Source: Eggerthellaceae bacterium (lineage in GTDB: Bacteria > Actinomycetota > Coriobacteriia > Coriobacteriales > Eggerthellaceae). Taken from it: 33,978 nucleotides of DNA. The notes under the pieces were generated by a model that was not told the origin of the DNA, made no database searches, and saw only the letters and a program-made list of their open reading frames with translations. The first letter of the stretch is position 1; every line of letters starts with the position of its first letter. Below are positions 6,184 through 33,231 of this stretch, in pieces. The stretch is taken from NCBI GenBank assembly GCA_017440565.1, contig JAFSHA010000057.1, positions 1 to 33,978 of the forward strand. The letters run 5' to 3'. The position numbers were made by a program, and so were the translations under genes.

Positions 6184-6295
6184 GACGCACCGTGTCCTCT
6201 CTTCGATCGCCGGCCTGCGAGCTGAAGCATCGGCGTGGCGGGCTGAAATCTTGCGTGAGGGCATGATCTTCGCAGGGCGCTTCGCTTTGATTTCA

Positions 6296-6330
6296 TTTAC
6301 GTAAACCCTGCGTTAAGCCGATCGAAAACG
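6296..6330. promoter_or_regulatory. putative GlnR-type operator in the asnB-glnA divergent region
   Basis: TAAAC at 6302, TTAAG at 6313 and GAAAA at 6324 stand in exact 11-bp register. Bases 6301-6328 are 24/28 identical to the gatC element at 669-696. The element overlaps a perfect palindrome TTTACGTAAA (6296-6305). It sits between divergent asnB and glnA and could control both. Relative to the glnA -10 it is centred near -64, a class I activator position. Binding by the regulator encoded at 7793-8467 is inferred. Confidence 0.65.
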
Positions 6331-6372: not shown

Positions 6373-6446
6373 TCAGTTCGTTCCCCAACCGTTAAAGGCC
6401 CCGTCGCCTCGGTGATAGCGTGCAGGGCCCAAGGAAGGCGAGTGCC

Positions 6447-7790
6447 ATGAGTTCCAGTCACGAGCAGGATTTCGTATTGAAGACCGTGAAGAGCCGCGAT
6501 GTCCACTTCATTCGCCTGTGGTTCGTCGACGTGATGGGACGAATGAAGTCCTTCGCCATCACGCCGCCCGAGCTCGAGAGGGCCTTTTCCGAGGGAATGG
6601 GGTTTGACGGAAGCTGCATCGAGGGTTTTCGCACACTGCGGGAATCGGATACGCTCGCCTTCCCCGACGCCTCCACCTTCCAGGTGCTGCCGTGGCGTCC
6701 GCAGTCGAACGCGGTCGGGCGCATGTTCTGCGAAATCAGGACGCCTGACGGCCGGCCCTTCGAGGGGGACTCTCGCCAGGTTCTCGAACGCGTGATGCTC
6801 AAGGCCAACGACATGGGCTATCTGTTCAACGTGGGCTCCGAGATCGAGTTTTTCTACTTCAGGGACTCCAAGGGCGCAGAAACGCTTGACAACGGCGGCT
6901 TGTTCGACCTGACGAGCCTCGATTGCGCGAGCGACTTGCGAAGGGACACCATCCTGACCCTCGAGAAGATGGGAATCCCCGTCGAGTACTCCCACCACGA
7001 GAGCGGTCCCTCCCAGCACGAGATAGACCTGCGCTTCACTGACGGGCTTTCCATGGCGGATGCCGTGATGACTTACAAGCTGGTGGTCAAGGAGGTCGCG
7101 CACAAGCACGGCGTGTTCGCGTCGTTCATGCCCAAGCCGATCGAGGGTGTTTCGGGAAGCGGCATGCACCTGCACATGAGCCTTTCTGACCTTGACGGCC
7201 GCAACGCGTTTTTCGATGCCGACGACCCGTCGGGCTTTTGCCTTTCGCGCATCGCCAAGAGCTTCATCGCAGGCGTTCTTAAATACGCTTGCGAGATGTG
7301 CCTGGTCACGAATCAGTACGTGAACTCCTACAAGCGCCTTGCGGGGGGAGCGGGGATCTCGAGTCGCGTTGCGTGGGCTGGGCGAAGCCGCGATGCGCTG
7401 ATACGGGTCCCGGGCTATCGCCCGAGTTGCGAAGAGGCGTGCCGCATCGAGTTTCGCGGCTCAGACCCGGCGGCAAACCCCTATCTTGCCTTTGCGGCGT
7501 TGCTGGCCGCGGGACTGAAGGGCATCGAGGATGGGCTCGAGCTTCCGCCGCCTGTCGATGGGGCCGAACCAGAAGCCTTGCCGAACGAGCGATTTGCCGA
7601 GCGCGGCGCGAGAACCCTTCCCACGACGTTGGGCGAGGCGGTTAGCCTGTTTGAGGGCAGCGAGCTTATGCGCGAGGTGCTGGGTCGCCATATACATGGG
7701 TACCTGGCCAAGGCCAAGCGAGCGGAATGGGAAGAATACCAGAGGGTCGTGACCGAGTGGGAGCGCGACCGCTATTTGGCGGTGTTGTGA
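6447..7790 (+). CDS. glnA: glutamine synthetase, type I (GlnA)
   Basis: A 447-residue enzyme that makes glutamine from glutamate, ammonia and ATP; the family forms cytoplasmic dodecamers. The N-terminal beta-grasp region holds VRFxRLW-like VHFIRLWFVDVMGRMKSF and GFDGSCIEGF. Metal and substrate residues are visible in NVGSEIEFF (Glu132, Glu134), SGPSQHEIDLRF, GSGMHLHMSL and RIEFRGSDPAANPYLAFAAL. The tail KRAEWEEYQRVVTEWERDRYL resembles actinobacterial GlnA2-type enzymes. The usual NLY-type adenylylation loop with its Tyr is not seen before RTLPTTLGEA, so control by GlnE-type adenylylation is unlikely. ATG 6447 has AAGGAAGG upstream; a GTG at 6420 is an inferior start. The regulator gene follows directly. 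Confidence 0.94.
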   Translation: MSSSHEQDFVLKTVKSRDVHFIRLWFVDVMGRMKSFAITPPELERAFSEGMGFDGSCIEGFRTLRESDTLAFPDASTFQVLPWRPQSNAVGRMFCEIRTPDGRPFEGDSRQVLERVMLKANDMGYLFNVGSEIEFFYFRDSKGAETLDNGGLFDLTSLDCASDLRRDTILTLEKMGIPVEYSHHESGPSQHEIDLRFTDGLSMADAVMTYKLVVKEVAHKHGVFASFMPKPIEGVSGSGMHLHMSLSDLDGRNAFFDADDPSGFCLSRIAKSFIAGVLKYACEMCLVTNQYVNSYKRLAGGAGISSRVAWAGRSRDALIRVPGYRPSCEEACRIEFRGSDPAANPYLAFAALLAAGLKGIEDGLELPPPVDGAEPEALPNERFAERGARTLPTTLGEAVSLFEGSELMREVLGRHIHGYLAKAKRAEWEEYQRVVTEWERDRYLAVL

Positions 7791-7792
7791 AG

Positions 7793-8467
7793 ATGCCGCG
7801 CAAGGAAGTCATATTCATAGCGGACAGCCTCGGAGGCGCCCATAAGTTCCAGCGGGTGCTGGCAGACCTCGACATCGAGGTTGCTGCCGGCTCGTCTGCC
7901 CAGCTCAAAAGGCTGTTGTCGGAGCATCCTGAACGCGATCTGGTCATATTCGAGGCGCACGGGGACGCGCTCGAGAACGTTTCCCGGATCGAGTCGATCC
8001 TCGCCGAGGAAGGCGGGGTTCCGATGCTTGCCATAGTGGAGGAGCGGCAGCTTGAGGAATTTCGCCTGCCGGTGCGCATCAAGGCCGACTTCGTGCTCTA
8101 CGGGGCAAGCGAGGCCGAATGCTCCATGCGCGTCAGGCAGCTGCTATGGCCGGGAGGCGAGGTGTCTTCAAGCGACTACGTCATCATCGACGGCATGAGC
8201 GTCAACCTCGCGACGTACCAGGTCAAGGTTAACGGGGAGCCGCTTGATCTGACGTACCTCGAGTACGCCCTGCTCTCGTTCTTCGTTACCCATCCCGACC
8301 GCACGTACCCGCGTGACGCCTTGCTGCGCCGCGTGTGGGACTTCGACTACTACGGTGGCAGCCGAACGGTGGACGTCCACGTGCGCCGTCTGCGCGCGAA
8401 GCTGGGCCCCGGGTTGGCGGAGCACCTCCAGACCGTGCGCGGCGTCGGCTACCTCTGGGTCTCTTGA
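7793..8467 (+). CDS. GlnR-like orphan response regulator, OmpR/PhoB family, degenerate receiver
   Basis: A 224-residue DNA-binding protein. Residues 1-115 have a receiver-like fold, but the phospho-acceptor position carries Glu54 (DLVIFEAHG instead of DLVLLD), the acidic DD pair of strand 1 is IADS, and the conserved Lys is missing (ADFVLYGAS). It therefore probably works without phosphorylation by a kinase, as Streptomyces GlnR does. Residues about 128-224 are a winged helix with LDLTYLEYALLSFFVTHPDR, RRVWDFDYYGG, SRTVDVHVRRLRAKLG and TVRGVGYLW, very close to GlnR. No sensor kinase is nearby. The start is 2 bp after glnA; a GTG at 7787 overlapping the glnA stop is an alternative. Candidate target sites flank the N-assimilation genes in this window. 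The GlnR name is inferred from resemblance and context. Confidence 0.85.
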   Translation: MPRKEVIFIADSLGGAHKFQRVLADLDIEVAAGSSAQLKRLLSEHPERDLVIFEAHGDALENVSRIESILAEEGGVPMLAIVEERQLEEFRLPVRIKADFVLYGASEAECSMRVRQLLWPGGEVSSSDYVIIDGMSVNLATYQVKVNGEPLDLTYLEYALLSFFVTHPDRTYPRDALLRRVWDFDYYGGSRTVDVHVRRLRAKLGPGLAEHLQTVRGVGYLWVS

Positions 8468-8474
8468 CGCGGTT

Positions 8475-9854
8475 ATGGGAGTGAGGTTTTGCCTGGCTAA
8501 GGCGGCGGGCGCGGCCCTGACGTGGGCCCTGCGCAACGTGGCGCGTCGTCCTGCGGGCAACGCGCCCGGCAAGGTGGCGCTGCTTCTGGACCCGGCTCTC
8601 ATAGCCCACCTTCGCGTGCGCTTGTCGAAGGGGTCCATTGTGGTGGTGGGCACCAACGGAAAGACCACCGTCGCAAACCTCGTCGCCGATGCCATCGATG
8701 CCTCTGGCCAGACCGTGGCGTGCAACCGCAGCGGTGCGAACCTGGATTCCGGCGTGGCCACGGCTTTGCTGCAAACCCGCAGCGCTGAATGGGGCGTGTT
8801 CGAGTGCGACGAGCTGTGGCTGTCCAAGGTGCTGCCCCTTCTCCAGGCCGATTACGTGGTGCTGCTCAACCTGTTTCGCGATCAGCTCGATCGCGTGGGG
8901 GAGACAGACGTCGTTCGGGAGAGGATCGCGGAAGCGCTCTCGGCATCGCCGGGCACCACGCTGGTCTATACAGCCGACGACCCTCAGTGCGCAGCCGTCG
9001 CCGAGGCCGTGGGCAATGCGCGCATCGCGGTTGGCGTCGAGGGCGACCTTGGGCTGGAGACGTTCGGGGTGGTCGATGAGCAGACATGTTGGCGTTGCGG
9101 GGCGCCGTTGACCTACGGCGCGCGCCAGTACGACCAGCTGGGAGCGTATCGCTGCGAGGGCTGCGGCTTCGCCCGCCCGAAGCTCGACTTCGCCGCGCAT
9201 GATGCCTCATATGATGCCACGGGCCTGCGTTTCTCGGTGACTGCGGCCGTCGCTTGGGCTGGCTTTGCTGCGCAAGGCGGCGCCTCGACCGAGATTTCCT
9301 GCCCGCAGCCTGCGCCTTACCTGCTCTACAACCTGTTGTCCGCCTTTGCGGCGGCGTGCCTTGCGGGTGTGCCCGTCGGCGATTTCCACCGTGCCGTCGA
9401 TTCTTTCAACCCCCGAAACGGGCGCCTGCAGCGCTACGTGGTGGACGGCCGGCCGGTGCTTCTCAACTTGGCGAAGAACCCGACGGGCTTCAACGAGAGC
9501 CTGCGTCTGCTTCTGGCCGACGAGGGGATGAAGGCCGTCGCGCTTTTCGTGAACGACAAGGAGGCCGACGGCCGCGACGTCTCGTGGATTTGGGACGTCG
9601 ACTTCGAGAGGCTGGGAGCCGGCATCCCTGCGGGGATGATTGTATTTGCGGGGGGTACGCGCAGAAACGACCTTCAGGTTCGCCTCAAGTACGCGGGCCT
9701 GCGCGCACGCCTCGTCGATGACGTCGAAGAGGTCTTCACAGCTCTCGGCGACTTTGCGCTGCCGCCTTTTGCGAGTTTGTACGTCATTGCCAATTACACC
9801 GCTCTTCCCGAGCTGCGCTTAGCGCTCGACGCCCTGTCCCGCAACGGGGCATAA
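8475..9854 (+). CDS. murT: lipid II isoglutaminyl synthase, Mur-ligase subunit (MurT)
   Basis: A 459-residue Mur-ligase-like protein. With GatD it amidates the alpha-carboxyl of D-Glu in lipid II to D-isoglutamine, on the cytoplasmic face of the membrane. The ATP P-loop VGTNGKTT is at about 58-65. A four-Cys zinc ribbon, Cys205-x-x-Cys208 and Cys227-x-x-Cys230, is inserted in the middle domain as in known MurT. The C-terminal DUF1727 part has LLNLAKNPTGFNESL and NDKEADGRDVSWIWDVDFE. The start ATG 8475 is 7 bp after the regulator and has a weak ribosome site, suggesting coupling to upstream translation. Upstream in-frame starts inside the regulator gene give no MurT-like sequence. Its partner gatD lies next to it but on the opposite strand. 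Confidence 0.9.
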   Translation: MGVRFCLAKAAGAALTWALRNVARRPAGNAPGKVALLLDPALIAHLRVRLSKGSIVVVGTNGKTTVANLVADAIDASGQTVACNRSGANLDSGVATALLQTRSAEWGVFECDELWLSKVLPLLQADYVVLLNLFRDQLDRVGETDVVRERIAEALSASPGTTLVYTADDPQCAAVAEAVGNARIAVGVEGDLGLETFGVVDEQTCWRCGAPLTYGARQYDQLGAYRCEGCGFARPKLDFAAHDASYDATGLRFSVTAAVAWAGFAAQGGASTEISCPQPAPYLLYNLLSAFAAACLAGVPVGDFHRAVDSFNPRNGRLQRYVVDGRPVLLNLAKNPTGFNESLRLLLADEGMKAVALFVNDKEADGRDVSWIWDVDFERLGAGIPAGMIVFAGGTRRNDLQVRLKYAGLRARLVDDVEEVFTALGDFALPPFASLYVIANYTALPELRLALDALSRNGA

Positions 9855-9864
9855 GAGGCGGAGG

Positions 9865-10827
9865 TCATCGGGCGAGCCGCATTCGCCCGAGCATGAAGGC
9901 CCTGGCCGCAAGCTCTTCGGCGTCGTCGATCCTTGCCAGGGTGGATGCGGGAAAGCCCGTGCGCTCGGCGCGTCTCTCAAGGCCGGCCGCGATGAGGAAA
10001 TCGGCTATCTCAGGGTTTTTCGAAAGGAGGGGGCCGTGGGCGTAGGTTCCAATCGCGTTGCGATGGATGGCGCCATCTGCGCGGGAGCGCTCATCGTTGC
10101 CATGGCCGCATCTTGAGATGATTCGGCCGAACGGCTGGGTTCCCTCAGCGAGGAACGTGCGGCCGGCGTGGTTCTCGAACCCGACGACCGGCGCTTCCGA
10201 GAGGGGGGATTCCAGGGCGAAGTCGCCGACGAGCCGCTTTCGCGCGTTCGTTGCGCGCCGCGTTTCCGCGTCGAACACCCCGACGCCCTCGACCGGCTTG
10301 CCGTCAAGAACCCAGCTCCTTCCGAGCATCTGGAAGCCCCCGCAGATGGCCAAGAGCGCGCCTCCCTCCTCGACGAAGCCTCGGATCTGCCCTCCCATTG
10401 CCATAAGGCGCTCGTGTGCAACCCGCTGCTTCTCGTCGGGCCCGCCTCCGATAAACAGGACATCGACCCCTGGAAGCTCAATTTCGTCCCCCCTGCGGCA
10501 TTCGAAAACGCTAACGGGGATTGACCGCCATGCGCACCTCATCCGAAGCACCGTCACGTTTCCCCGGTCACCGTAGAGGTTGAGCAGGTCGGGAAGCAGG
10601 TGCGCGATCGTCAGGGGAGGTTCCGAATCGCCGCCGCGGCAGAGCTTGGGAGAGGGCCGCTCGGGAAGCGGGCGACCCGTGGAAGTGCTCACGGATGATG
10701 GAAACTTAGAGTTGGAAGGCAAGATGCCTGCGTCGTTTTCGAAACAGAAGCTCACCGCGATGTACCTGCCTTTCGGAAACCTCCCAAGGAGATAATGCCA
10801 CCTTTCGGCTTCTCCGTGGGTCGTCAT
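9865..10827 (-). CDS. gatD: lipid II isoglutaminyl synthase, glutamine amidotransferase subunit (GatD)
   Basis: A class I (triad) amidotransferase supplying ammonia to MurT. The recognisable GatD domain starts at residue 72 (LTIAHLLPDLLNLYGDRGN), with nucleophile Cys162 in LLAICGGFQMLG and catalytic His264 in GTYAHGPLLSKNPEIADFLI. The 71 residues before it resemble nothing I know, and ATG 10827 lacks a ribosome site, so the true start may be internal, for example GTG at 10755 (AGGCAGG upstream). From 72 onward the length is about 249, close to the usual 240-260. Normally murT and gatD are co-directional; here they converge with only 10 bp between stops. The 5' end faces the glutamate synthase operon across a shared operator. 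Confidence 0.85.
   Translation of the reverse strand: MTTHGEAERWHYLLGRFPKGRYIAVSFCFENDAGILPSNSKFPSSVSTSTGRPLPERPSPKLCRGGDSEPPLTIAHLLPDLLNLYGDRGNVTVLRMRCAWRSIPVSVFECRRGDEIELPGVDVLFIGGGPDEKQRVAHERLMAMGGQIRGFVEEGGALLAICGGFQMLGRSWVLDGKPVEGVGVFDAETRRATNARKRLVGDFALESPLSEAPVVGFENHAGRTFLAEGTQPFGRIISRCGHGNDERSRADGAIHRNAIGTYAHGPLLSKNPEIADFLIAAGLERRAERTGFPASTLARIDDAEELAARAFMLGRMRLAR
9868..9890. terminator. candidate bidirectional hairpin at the murT/gatD junction
   Basis: A perfect 8-bp inverted repeat, TCGGGCGA (9868-9875) and TCGCCCGA (9883-9890), encloses a 7-base loop just past the murT stop. It overlaps the last codons of gatD. There is no T-run on either side, so intrinsic termination is uncertain. 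Confidence 0.4.
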
Positions 10828-10834
10828 CAGAAGT

Positions 10835-10894
10835 TAAACCCCCTCGAAACGCAAGGGATACTGCGCGGAAACAAAGGCAATATTTCCGTGAAAC
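10835..10894. promoter_or_regulatory. putative GlnR-type operator array between gatD and the glutamate synthase operon
   Basis: Pentamers occur in exact 11-bp register: TAAAC 10835, GAAAC 10846, GATAC 10857, GAAAC 10868, a degenerate AATAT at 10879, and GAAAC 10890. Five of six registers match the GlnR-box style (TAAAC/GTNAC and GAAAC direct repeats separated by six bases). The array lies between divergent gatD and the first glutamate synthase gene and may control both. A possible -10 for the plus strand is TATCCT at 10905-10910. Confidence 0.7.
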
Positions 10895-10942
10895 AAACCG
10901 GCCGTATCCTTCTCTCACATTCGAGGGGCAAGGAGGCTTGAG

Positions 10943-12133
10943 ATGCCCAAAACGGCTATAAGGGAGGGGGACGTTCGCATTCCCTCCGGTTGTGCGATCG
11001 CCGGGATCATGGACCGAAGCGGCGTGAGGCACGACGGCGGAGACATACTTCGGTCGATTGAGCTCATGCACGACCGCAGCAACGGGCTCGGCGGGGGATT
11101 CGCGGCTTACGGGATCTACCCGGAGTACCGCGAACTGTACGCGTTCCACGTCATGTACGAGACCCACGAGGCCCGTGTTGCGACGGAGGCATACCTGGAC
11201 GTCTACTTCATGAGCGAGAAGCAGGAGCGCATCCCCACCGAGCCGGTCCCGTCGATCAAGAACCCGCCCGACGTCTGGCGCTACTTCGTCGCCCCTCACC
11301 CCATGCGCATGAACATGAGCGGCTTGGACGAGTCCGAATACGTCATGAGGCACGTGTTCCATATAAACAGCCAGATCGAGGGCGCCTTCGTGGCAAGCTC
11401 GGGCAAGGACATGGGGGCGTTCAAGGGGGTGGGCTACCCCGAGGACATCGGGGAGTTCTACCGTATCGGCGACTATCGGGCGTGGGCTTGGACGGCGCAC
11501 GGACGCTTCCCCACGAACACGCCGGGGTGGTGGGGCGGCGCGCATCCGTTCACGCTGCTCAACTGGTCGGTCGTCCACAACGGGGAGATCTCGAGCTACG
11601 ACGCCAACCGCCGATACGTCGAGCAGTTCGGCTACGACTGTGAGCTGCAGACCGATACCGAGGTCATCACCTACCTCTTCGACCTGCTCTGCCGCCGCCA
11701 CGGTCTTTCGCAAGAGCTTGCCGCGCGCATCATGACAGCGCCCTCCTGGGACGAGATAGACCGAATGCCGCCCGATCGGGCAAAGTTCGAGACGGATCTT
11801 CGCGTTACGTACTCGAGCGCCTTGGTCAACGGGCCCTTCTCGGTCATCCTAGGCTCCGAAGAGGGCCTGCTTGCCATCAACGACCGGCTGAAGCTTCGCG
11901 CCCTCATGGTAGGAGAGAAGGGCAGCATGGTCTACTTCGCCAGCGAGCAGGCCGCCATCGAGGTGGTGTGCCCCGATGCCGAGAACATCCGGCCCGTCGA
12001 GGGCGGCATCCCCTTCGTGGCGCAGCTCGACGAGGTCGCGAGGCGCAAGGGCCTTGCGGCTTGCGAGAACTCCCCGGTGCTGAACCCGCTTGCCCACGAG
12101 GTCGGCGTGCAGCCGAAGAGAAGGGAGGCGTAG
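10943..12133 (+). CDS. glutamate synthase, class II amidotransferase subunit (GltB N-terminal domain as a separate protein)
   Basis: A 396-residue Ntn-type glutaminase corresponding to the first domain of bacterial GltB. It releases ammonia from glutamine for the FMN subunit encoded next. The likely nucleophile is Cys17 in IPSGCAIAGI, which needs removal of a 16-residue leader, as in other GOGATs with propeptides. HDRSNGLGGGFAAYGIYPEY, AHGRFPTNTPGWWGGAHPF, VHNGEISSYDANRRY and QTDTEVITYLFD match the fold. ATG 10943 has a perfect AGGAGG six bases upstream. The synthase gene starts 4 bp after the stop. Splitting GltB into three genes is known in archaea and some anaerobic bacteria; no GltD gene accompanies it. 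Confidence 0.9.
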   Translation: MPKTAIREGDVRIPSGCAIAGIMDRSGVRHDGGDILRSIELMHDRSNGLGGGFAAYGIYPEYRELYAFHVMYETHEARVATEAYLDVYFMSEKQERIPTEPVPSIKNPPDVWRYFVAPHPMRMNMSGLDESEYVMRHVFHINSQIEGAFVASSGKDMGAFKGVGYPEDIGEFYRIGDYRAWAWTAHGRFPTNTPGWWGGAHPFTLLNWSVVHNGEISSYDANRRYVEQFGYDCELQTDTEVITYLFDLLCRRHGLSQELAARIMTAPSWDEIDRMPPDRAKFETDLRVTYSSALVNGPFSVILGSEEGLLAINDRLKLRALMVGEKGSMVYFASEQAAIEVVCPDAENIRPVEGGIPFVAQLDEVARRKGLAACENSPVLNPLAHEVGVQPKRREA

Positions 12134-12137
12134 GGAC

Positions 12138-13643
12138 ATGCTCGATTACGCGCTTCCCAGGTTCAAGGTGCTGCGTGACGAGGCCTTGTGCGTCAAGTGC
12201 GGGGTGTGCGAGCGGTCATGCGCGAACGAGGTGCATCGCAGCGACGGCGCCTCGGGAAAGTTTGCGGCCAACCACGTTGCGTGCGTGAACTGCCAGCGTT
12301 GCGTGGTCATGTGCCCCGTACGCGCCCTGGCCATAGCCAACTGGCCCCAGGTGGACTGCGGATCGACGAACTGGACGCTCGGCTACATGCAGGACATAGC
12401 CAAGCAGTCCCAAACGGGCGGCGTGCTGCTTGCTTCGATGGGCAGCACCCAGCCCCTTCCCATCTACTGGGACCACCTGCTTCTCAATGCAAGCCAGGTG
12501 ACGAACCCCTCCATCGATCCGCTGCGCGAGCCCATGGAGACGCGCGTGTTTTTGGGCAGCCGCCCCAGCGCCTTGAAGGTGAACGAGCGGGAACGCACCG
12601 TGATTACGGAGATGCCGCCCCAAATCAAGCTCGACGTCCCCCTTATGTTTTCGGCGATGAGCTTCGGGTCCGTGTCGCTCAACGCGCAGAAGGCCCTCGC
12701 CATGGCAGCCGAGAAGTTGGGCACGTTCTTCAACACGGGCGAGGGCGGCCTGCATCGTGAACTCGAACGGTACGGAGAACACGCTATCGTGCAGGTGGCG
12801 TCGGGCAGGTTCGGCGTCGATGCGCACTACCTCAACGCCGGCGCCATGATCGAGATCAAGATCGGGCAGGGCGCGAAACCGGGCATCGGCGGGCACCTTC
12901 CCGGTGAGAAGATCAGCGGTGAGGTCTCGCGCACCCGCATGATCCCGCAGGGCACCGACGCCATATCCCCCGCGCCGCACCACGACATCTACTCGATCGA
13001 GGACCTCAAGCAGCTTATCTTCTCGCTTAAGGAGGCGACGCTCTACCGCAAGCCCGTTGCCGTGAAGATAGCGGCGGTGCACAACGCGGCGGCCATAGCA
13101 AGCGGCATGGCCCGTGCGGGCGCCGACGTCATCGTGGTCGACGGGTTCCGCGGCGGCACGGGAGCGGCGCCCAAGCGAATCCGCGACAGCGTCGGCATTC
13201 CCATCGAGCTGGCGCTTGCCGCCATCGATCAGCGCCTGCGCGACGAGGGCATCCGGTCGACGGTAAGCGTGGTTGCCGGGGGATCCATTCGAAGCTCGGC
13301 TGACATCGTGCGCGCGGTGGCGCTCGGAGCCGACGCCGCGTACATTGCAAGCGCCGCGCTCATAGCCATGGGCTGCCACCAGTGCCAGGACTGCTCGAGG
13401 GGGAGGTGCAACTGGGGGATAGCCACCCAGGACCCCCGCCTGACAAAGCGCCTCAACCCCGAAGAGGGCGCCGAGCGCGTCGTGAACCTGGTTCGCGCAT
13501 GGAATCACGAGATCCAGGAAATGATGGGAGGCATGGGGATCAATGCCATCGACAGCCTGAGGGGAAACCGCCTCATGCTGCGCGGCGTGGGGATCAACGA
13601 GAAGGAGCTCGATATCCTCGGCGTCAAGCACGCGGGGGAGTGA
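12138..13643 (+). CDS. gltB: glutamate synthase, ferredoxin-domain plus FMN synthase subunit (GltB central domain)
   Basis: A 501-residue protein with two N-terminal 4Fe-4S motifs, Cys18-21-24-28 (CVKCGVCERSC) and Cys49-52-55-59 (CVNCQRCVVMCP). A TIM-barrel FMN domain follows, reductively aminating 2-oxoglutarate to glutamate. FMN/substrate motifs include FSAMSFGSVSLNAQKAL, GTFFNTGEGG, KIGQGAKPGIGGHLP, VDGFRGGTGAAP and VVAGGSIRSSADIVRAVALG. The Cys413-416-419-424 cluster (CHQCQDCSRGRC) is where GOGATs bind the 3Fe-4S centre. The built-in ferredoxin domain and lack of a GltD neighbour suggest electrons arrive by a ferredoxin-like route rather than through an NADPH beta subunit; this is inference. 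The start ATG 12138 was chosen because the upstream in-frame stretch overlaps the previous gene; GGAGG lies nine bases away. Confidence 0.92.
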   Translation: MLDYALPRFKVLRDEALCVKCGVCERSCANEVHRSDGASGKFAANHVACVNCQRCVVMCPVRALAIANWPQVDCGSTNWTLGYMQDIAKQSQTGGVLLASMGSTQPLPIYWDHLLLNASQVTNPSIDPLREPMETRVFLGSRPSALKVNERERTVITEMPPQIKLDVPLMFSAMSFGSVSLNAQKALAMAAEKLGTFFNTGEGGLHRELERYGEHAIVQVASGRFGVDAHYLNAGAMIEIKIGQGAKPGIGGHLPGEKISGEVSRTRMIPQGTDAISPAPHHDIYSIEDLKQLIFSLKEATLYRKPVAVKIAAVHNAAAIASGMARAGADVIVVDGFRGGTGAAPKRIRDSVGIPIELALAAIDQRLRDEGIRSTVSVVAGGSIRSSADIVRAVALGADAAYIASAALIAMGCHQCQDCSRGRCNWGIATQDPRLTKRLNPEEGAERVVNLVRAWNHEIQEMMGGMGINAIDSLRGNRLMLRGVGINEKELDILGVKHAGE

Positions 13644-13668: not shown

Positions 13669-14412
13669 ATGATCATGGGCGGGCAACCCGTCAAGGCGTG
13701 CGTCAGTTTGGGGACGTCTCATTTTCAGAAGGCGAATCAGAGGGTGCGCGCGGCCCTCGCCGCGGCAGACGTCGTGGAGCTGCACGACGTATTCGCCCAG
13801 CGCTACCTCGGCTGCGCCTTGGATGCCGGCAAGAAGCTCGACATCTTCGGTACGCCGGGAAACGACATGGCGTGCTTTTTGGACGGCGGGGAGGTCGAGG
13901 TGCACGGTAACGTGCAAGATCAGATCGGCAACACCATGAACGCCGGGCGCATCGTCGTCCACGGACGCTGCGGCGACGCGGCCGGCTACGCCATGCGCGG
14001 CGGGGAGATCTTCGTTCGCGACGACTGCGGTTGGCGCGTGGGGATTCACATGAAGCAGTATGAAGGCAGGAGGCCGGTGGTGTTCATCGGCGGCGATGCG
14101 GGCGACTTCCTCGGGGAGTACATGGCCGGAGGCGTCATCGTCTTGCTGGGGAAAGCCGGCAAGCACCTTGGCACCGGGATGCACGGCGGGGTGATCTACC
14201 TGAAGGCTCCGCCCGATCCGGGCCTCATTTCCGACAGCTTGGTGCTCGAGAAGGCCGATGAGGCCGATGCGGAGGTGCTCTCGCCGCTCATGTGCGCGTA
14301 CAACCGATTGTTCGCCGAGGAGCGAGGCGCGGCCGTTGACGAATCGGGCGAGGGCTTCTGGCGCTTGAGGCCCGCGTCGAGCCGTCCGTACGCATCGATG
14401 TATGCGCAATAG
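13669..14412 (+). CDS. glutamate synthase, GXGXG-domain subunit (GltB C-terminal domain)
   Basis: A 247-residue protein built of a right-handed beta-helix with repeated Gly-rich turns: GTPGNDMACFLDGGEVEVHGN, DQIGNTMNAGRIVVHGRCGDAAGYAMRGG, GGDAGDFLGEYMAGGVIVLLG and LGTGMHGGVIYL. This is the GXGXG domain of GltB, also found in FwdC/FmdC. In GltB it is structural and helps position the ammonia tunnel between the amidotransferase and FMN domains. AAGGAG precedes ATG 13669, 25 bp after the synthase gene. The last 50 residues are a non-repeating tail. It completes a three-gene GOGAT operon and is followed by a hairpin. Confidence 0.9.
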   Translation: MIMGGQPVKACVSLGTSHFQKANQRVRAALAAADVVELHDVFAQRYLGCALDAGKKLDIFGTPGNDMACFLDGGEVEVHGNVQDQIGNTMNAGRIVVHGRCGDAAGYAMRGGEIFVRDDCGWRVGIHMKQYEGRRPVVFIGGDAGDFLGEYMAGGVIVLLGKAGKHLGTGMHGGVIYLKAPPDPGLISDSLVLEKADEADAEVLSPLMCAYNRLFAEERGAAVDESGEGFWRLRPASSRPYASMYAQ

Positions 14413-14506: not shown

Positions 14507-14565
14507 GAAACACAGAGTTAAACGCTGCGAAACACGCTGAAATTCGCTTGAAACGCCCTCGAAAT
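14507..14565. promoter_or_regulatory. putative GlnR-type operator array upstream of glnN
   Basis: Six pentamers run in near-helical register: GAAAC 14507, TAAAC 14519, GAAAC 14529, GAAAT 14539, GAAAC 14550, GAAAT 14561 (steps 12, 10, 10, 11, 11). It ends 10 bp before a good -10 hexamer. The spacing is less exact than in the GOGAT array. Nearness to the promoter would allow either activation or repression. Confidence 0.6.
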
Positions 14566-14574
14566 GCGGGTTCC

Positions 14575-14580
14575 TAAAAT
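14575..14580 (+). promoter_or_regulatory. candidate -10 hexamer of the glnN promoter
   Basis: TAAAAT at 14575-14580 stands out in this GC-rich DNA, 84 bp before the glnN start. The -35 position falls inside the pentamer array (AACGCC at 14552) and is not consensus-like. Confidence 0.45.
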
Positions 14581-33060: not shown

Positions 33061-33155
33061 AGCTACGGCTGGTTCGCTTATACTCTCGCGACAGGTCGCC
33101 GCATGCTCTTCCAATGCCGACCCTTCGATTTTCCAAGCGCCCCTGTTTCCCTTGC

Positions 33156-33231
33156 GTAACGGGTTTGTCATGGCGTTGTTAAAGGTGTTTTGAGGACACG
33201 TTGCATTACGCTCGCGAAACCTCCCCTTAAA
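33156..33231. promoter_or_regulatory. two putative GlnR-type operators upstream of amt
   Basis: First triad: GTAAC 33156, GTCAT 33167, GTTAA 33178. Second triad: ATTAC 33205, GAAAC 33216, TTAAA 33227. Both are in exact 11-bp steps with six-base spacers. GTAAC and ATTAC are the closest matches in the window to the published GTNAC half of actinobacterial GlnR boxes. The rest of the 225-bp dapL-amt gap has a TATACT at 33079-33084, of unclear meaning because no -35 partner is seen. Confidence 0.65.

Follow-up and report, generated by a model that had tools for sequence, protein, structure and literature searches.

A conserved 11-bp repeat array predicted to be a three-box GlnR operator precedes a split glutamate synthase in Eggerthellaceae

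We analyzed a 33,978-nucleotide stretch of an Eggerthellaceae genome (contig JAFSHA010000057.1; hereafter, the window), in which an array of short direct repeats precedes the genes of a glutamate synthase split into three open reading frames (ORFs). The array, the promoter elements and genes around it, and a glnA-glnR pair located on the same strand are as follows:

6420..7790, + strand: glnA (type I glutamine synthetase), immediately 5' of glnR
7793..8467, + strand: glnR, orphan regulator of the OmpR family, predicted to bind the array, 2.4 kb from it
9865..10827, - strand: gatD ORF, divergent neighbor, not thought to be a target; the true start is probably downstream of the ATG at 10827
10835..10850, + strand: predicted distal GlnR box a3-b3, TAAAC-n6-GAAAC, additional to the two boxes that form the core in relatives
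10857..10872, + strand: predicted middle GlnR box a1-b1, GATAC-n6-GAAAC, the first two of the four conserved core registers
10879..10894, + strand: predicted proximal GlnR box a2-b2, AATAT-n6-GAAAC, with a weak a-site register that is NATAC in relatives
10905..10910, + strand: -10 element TATCCT, 10 nt past the last GAAAC (10890-10894), a spacing identical in 41/41 promoters
10930..10936, + strand: ribosome binding site of gltB1, AAGGAGG in sequence
10943..12133, + strand: gltB1, glutamine amidotransferase part of the split glutamate synthase, predicted target gene
12090-13643, + strand: gltB2 (FMN/FeS synthase domain), downstream of gltB1
13669-14412, + strand: gltB3 (GXGXG domain), downstream of gltB1
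14507..14580, + strand: second GlnR-like cluster, before a type III glutamine synthetase gene, six half-sites followed by N9 and TAAAAT (14575-14580)

Six pentamers, TAAAC-GAAAC-GATAC-GAAAC-AATAT-GAAAC, can be read from the sequence between positions 10835 and 10894 at exact 11-bp steps (starts at 10835, 10846, 10857, 10868, 10879, and 10890, respectively), which confirms all six registers of the array proposed in the first-pass annotation. The further claim that this is the longest regular array in the window is true for exact 11-bp registers, the six-half-site cluster at 14507-14565 being irregular. The array lies on the coding strand of gltB1 and ends 48 bp before the gene, an orientation that was alike in all promoters compared. 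To score runs of four or six 11-bp registers, we used a simple scheme with dinucleotide shuffles as the null. The array scored 17.5 (four registers) and 22.3 (six registers), compared with maxima of 12.8 and 13.9, respectively, in 200 shuffles of the whole window, none of which reached the observed scores; nor were these scores reached when the local 243 bp was shuffled 5000 times. The register signal was exclusive to step 11, with 17.5 at this step versus no more than 7.8 at steps 6 to 10 and 12 to 16. Because the scoring scheme was devised with the array already known, the shuffles alone overstate the case, and we place the main weight on conservation in relatives, which provides an independent test.

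Relatives of gltB1 were collected among the genomes of the family and the named genomes of GTDB (Adlercreutzia, Gordonibacter, Raoultibacter, Slackia, Parvibacter, Enteroscipio, and others), and the resulting set comprised 41 dereplicated Eggerthellaceae-type glutamate synthase promoters. The pattern G[AT]AAC-N10-TANNNT was present upstream of gltB in 38 of these, against 0.25 expected from shuffles; TANNNT at any other distance from the strict half-site was seen in 0-5 promoters (n = 41), and the reverse strand of the 41 gltB promoters contained no instance of the pattern. With a relaxed half-site, the succession of a last half-site, exactly 10 nt, and a -10 element (TANNNT) was found in all 41 promoters. 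The consensus in relatives is GaaAC-n6-GAAACA-n5-.atac-n6-GAAACA-n9-TA..CT, and the poor fifth register of the window (AATAT at 10879) corresponds to the register that is weakest in relatives too. The brevity of the pentamers and the one off-consensus register might suggest that the 11-bp spacing is a chance pattern of A-rich pentamers, but neither the local nor the whole-window shuffles attained the observed score, and the maintenance of the architecture in 41/41 promoters refutes this explanation, leaving it with practically no probability. The comparison yields a precise and testable promoter rule, GAAAC-N10-TANNNT behind 11-bp repeats. In one relative, the gltB promoter (L048:6835-6921) has seven 11-bp registers (GAAAC, GACGC, GAAAC, GAAGC, GAAAC, GTTGC, and GAATC) followed by N10-TATGCT, and thus exceeds the six sites given as the maximum in PMC5826061.

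A PWM built from relatives alone was used to scan the window and its shuffles. The best site in the window was 10857-10910 (score of 47.0), overlapped by a distal register scoring 26.4, whereas the next independent site in the 34 kb scored 7.5 and the shuffles reached at most 7.1. In neighbor loci, the gltB promoter was nearly always the top site, with gltB sites scoring 15 to 55, and sites were also detected upstream of type III glutamine synthetase genes (L055, L056, and L061) and upstream of glnA adjoining glnR in distant Actinomycetota (L086, L092, L101, and L111). The latter sites constitute independent support, because those genomes took no part in building the matrix. Many glnA promoters of the family contain a one-box site 9-11 nt before TATAAT. 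A profile search across 45 whole genomes returned gltB promoters as the strongest matches, and at E ≤ 0.1 the genome that contains the window gave a single match, which was the window site. The profile includes this site, so that only the uniqueness of the window match is informative. A single half-site plus -10 element showed no enrichment as a genome-wide predictor (19 matches versus 28 in the reversed-pattern control), and the full array is therefore needed for prediction; a one-box pattern was not clearly above its own control in 60 relatives.

In sequence, the array fits the operator of actinobacterial GlnR, with gTnAc/GaAAc half-sites 6 bp apart arranged in tandem at 11 bp, on the coding strand and upstream of a nitrogen-assimilation gene. 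The actinomycete GlnR box consensus is gTnAc-n6-GaAAc-n6-GtnAC-n6-GAAAc, gltBD is among the genes known to be controlled directly by GlnR, and the solved activation complex contains 4 GlnR DNA-binding domains positioned head to tail on 4 sites (PMC10704036). Adjacent glnA and glnR genes are found in the window and in all family loci examined, the pairs occurring throughout the family. The C-terminal domain of the window GlnR is a winged helix of the OmpR type (PF00486, 5.4e-23), and the best PDB matches of the protein are 8hih, 8hig, and 8hml, whose recognition helices are nearly the same as its own (GG[ST]RTVDVHVRRLRAKLGP). We take these entries to be GlnR structures, with 8hih presumably representing the activation complex; their PDB names read only "transcriptional regulatory protein" and "OmpR family regulator," and the GlnR identity also leans on the description in the review. 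The N-terminal receiver-like domain matches the GlnR-type PF21695 weakly (E = 0.00016; 22.0 bits versus a cut-off of 27), and the PDB comparison reveals homology across much of it. The conserved receiver Asp (D50) with Arg52 is absent, the corresponding residues being Glu-Ala-His in the window GlnR and Glu-Ala-Arg in family members; the position is Glu in the Eggerthellaceae GlnR proteins aligned (L112-L137, L161, and L173) and Asp in the distant L101, L111, and L086. In described GlnR proteins, the conserved Asp serves dimerization rather than phosphorylation (PMC10704036), and we propose that Glu is a variant of a noncatalytic position and that the window protein would work like GlnR.

No sensor kinase was found among the annotated neighbors of glnR in the window and in the family loci examined, in keeping with an orphan regulator. 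The GlnR query matched in 136 of 137 family genomes, a count that takes in other OmpR-type regulators in genomes with a weak best match, and the window's own genome contains 12 matches at E ≤ 0.001, several further OmpR-type regulators among them. One of these, for example a PhoP-like protein, might be the true ligand, given that 11-bp direct repeats are common to the OmpR/PhoB superfamily and that PhoB-like activators use similar direct repeats near the -10 element. We consider such a ligand very unlikely. The half-site agrees with that published for GlnR, glutamate synthase is already known as a GlnR target, glnA promoters next to glnR are picked up by the PWM in distant genomes, and glnA-glnR pairs are present family-wide.

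Based on the GlnR consensus, the GlnR gene in the window, the fixed -10 spacing, and the relatives-only PWM, we are confident in interpreting the array as a three-box GlnR operator (a3-b3-a1-b1-a2-b2) in the gltB1-2-3 promoter, most likely activating gltB under nitrogen limitation. Counterpoints include the poor half-site in the fifth register (AATAT), although the corresponding a2 site of Streptomyces coelicolor amtB is likewise atypical and dispensable (PMC5826061), and the absence of gltB from some family genomes with GlnR. Each 11-bp register of the coding strand would take up one GlnR protomer, with successive protomers in head-to-tail order; the first-pass annotation proposed several dimers on one DNA face, and the array, a multi-site nitrogen-regulator operator by our reading and kept in 41/41 promoters, is consistent with several protomers along one face. 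The final register overlaps the expected -35 position and leaves 10 nt to the -10 element, so that GlnR on the array most likely substitutes for a good -35 element in recruiting RNA polymerase. The fixed N10 distance, present in 41/41 promoters with other spacings at or near background, is that of a PhoB-like, -35-replacing (class II) activator promoter. Under this arrangement, gltB would be switched on when nitrogen is limiting, and the distal third box should confer a stronger or faster response, by analogy with the amtB promoter of Streptomyces coelicolor.

The preference for activation is drawn from geometry, and GlnR is a dual regulator that represses gdhA and ald in other actinomycetes (PMC10704036, PMC4140684). 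Repression of gltB by GlnR bound to the array is nevertheless quite unlikely: the operator stops 10 nt upstream of the -10 element and leaves both this element and the start uncovered, OmpR-type proteins in such a geometry usually activate, and GlnR up-regulates GOGAT genes in Saccharopolyspora. Activation of gltB by GlnR would extend the nitrogen control described for Streptomyces, mycobacteria, and their relatives to a gut-dwelling actinobacterial family.

The amtB promoter of S. coelicolor has 3 GlnR boxes in the same order (a3-b3-a1-b1-a2-b2), of which a2 is atypical and dispensable, and with the third box activation is both stronger and more rapid (PMC5826061). The array in the window resembles it in having 6 half-sites of the same consensus, one atypical a-site (here AATAT), and a GlnR of the OmpR type, and differs in that the target is a split glutamate synthase, the 6 registers are in one unbroken 11-bp phase, and the host belongs to the Eggerthellaceae. 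Similarly, the GlnR operators with two boxes and the activation complex of Shi et al. (2023; PDB 8hih), cited in PMC10704036, have four 11-bp direct registers, with one DNA-binding domain per register, head to tail, beside RNA polymerase, a plan that we predict to apply here; unlike those operators as cited, the window array has an extra distal box, and the family GlnR has Glu where other GlnR proteins have the receiver Asp. In Saccharopolyspora erythraea, glutamate synthase (gltBD) is under direct GlnR control (Yao 2014, as cited in PMC10704036), as predicted here, whereas the enzyme of the window is split into 3 ORFs and its host belongs to a different actinobacterial class. A GlnR-type gltB switch is already known, then, and is apparently undescribed in Coriobacteriia; a search of literature of partial coverage turned up no paper that connects GlnR to Coriobacteriia or Eggerthella, which is weak evidence. 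What is unusual here is the replacement of the receiver Asp by Glu in the aligned Eggerthellaceae GlnR sequences, and the location of this second glnA-glnR pair amid glutamine-using enzymes.

The region had been described in the first-pass annotation as a divergent promoter of gatD and glutamate synthase that would link the GatD half of peptidoglycan amidation to nitrogen control. The divergent arrangement stands insofar as the longest gatD ORF starts at an ATG (10827) only 8 bp from the array, and a bound multimer could affect a leftward promoter. However, approximately 70 residues precede the conserved GatD core, and the base composition before ~10690 is not coding-like, so that ATG 10827 is perhaps not the gatD start, which probably lies well downstream. 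Furthermore, gatD adjoins gltB only in this contig, the adjacency being detected in no relative; the array and the -10 element point only at gltB, as in all relatives; and none of 30 family murT loci has a GlnR site (maximum PWM score of 4.8, versus 15 to 55 for gltB sites). We therefore reject gatD and murT as GlnR targets and regard a shared operator that also controls gatD according to nitrogen status as improbable. The other side of the proposed link, in which murT is read from the glnA side, fared no better, as no convincing GlnR site was identified before the glnA-glnR-murT unit of the window. Given the gatD context, the doubtful gatD start, and the results for the murT loci and the glnA-glnR-murT unit, the attractive connection between nitrogen control and cell-wall amidation is removed as unsupported. 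A GAAAC-N10-TAGCAT motif before the second murT of the genome (C36) was dismissed as weak, the upstream registers being absent. The murT and gatD genes are separate and convergent here (8475-10827), whereas many genomes of the family have murT open frames of ~730-850 residues, a length suggestive of MurT-GatD fusions.

The cluster preceding the type III glutamine synthetase gene consists of GAAAC (14507), TAAAC (14519), GAAAC (14529), GAAAT (14539), GAAAC (14550), and GAAAT (14561), at irregular steps of 12, 10, 10, 11, and 11 bp, and is probably a second GlnR promoter. Two partial arrays are located on the minus strand: TTAAC-ATGAC-GTTAC-GAAAC at 33145-33182, at 11-bp steps and with no evident promoter or target gene, and TTAAC-TTTAC-GAAAT-GAAGC at 6279-6316, near the asnB start and with no clear -10 element.

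The genome that contains the window encodes 2 diverged glnA-glnR pairs. The GlnR of the other pair (G000:C157:37561-38223) is 73% identical to the window GlnR and 91% identical to that of G084, a genome of the same genus, whereas the window GlnR is only ~73-75% identical to any other; which of the 2 paralogues acts on the array is uncertain. The window carries nearly every glutamine-making or glutamine-using enzyme on one contig (781-33060), including gatCAB, asnB, glnA, murT, gatD, gltB1-3, and the type III glutamine synthetase, as well as guaA, glmS, pyrG, purF, and carAB, together with purC, purA, purB, and dapF. None of carA, guaA, pyrG, and gltB was found in G084 (97% complete), and any pyrG match is absent from 18 of 137 family genomes. 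It is possible that the window was acquired as an island; a contaminant contig is ranked as less likely. A more speculative scenario, to which we assign a small chance, is that the Eggerthellaceae GlnR, with Glu for Asp, is a constitutively assembled oligomer reading 11-bp ladders of 4 to 7 registers as a glutamate synthase rheostat, with a second, diverged glnA-glnR pair, that of the window, locally controlling the surrounding island of nearly all glutamine-using enzymes. We also entertained self-resistance to a glutamine antagonist as the role of the island and set it aside, since carriers have no second, native pyrG and duplication is thus unsupported. Full-length carriers of the window pyrG type (73-78% identical) show no native-type pyrG (~55-60%), a pattern that looks like replacement rather than duplication.
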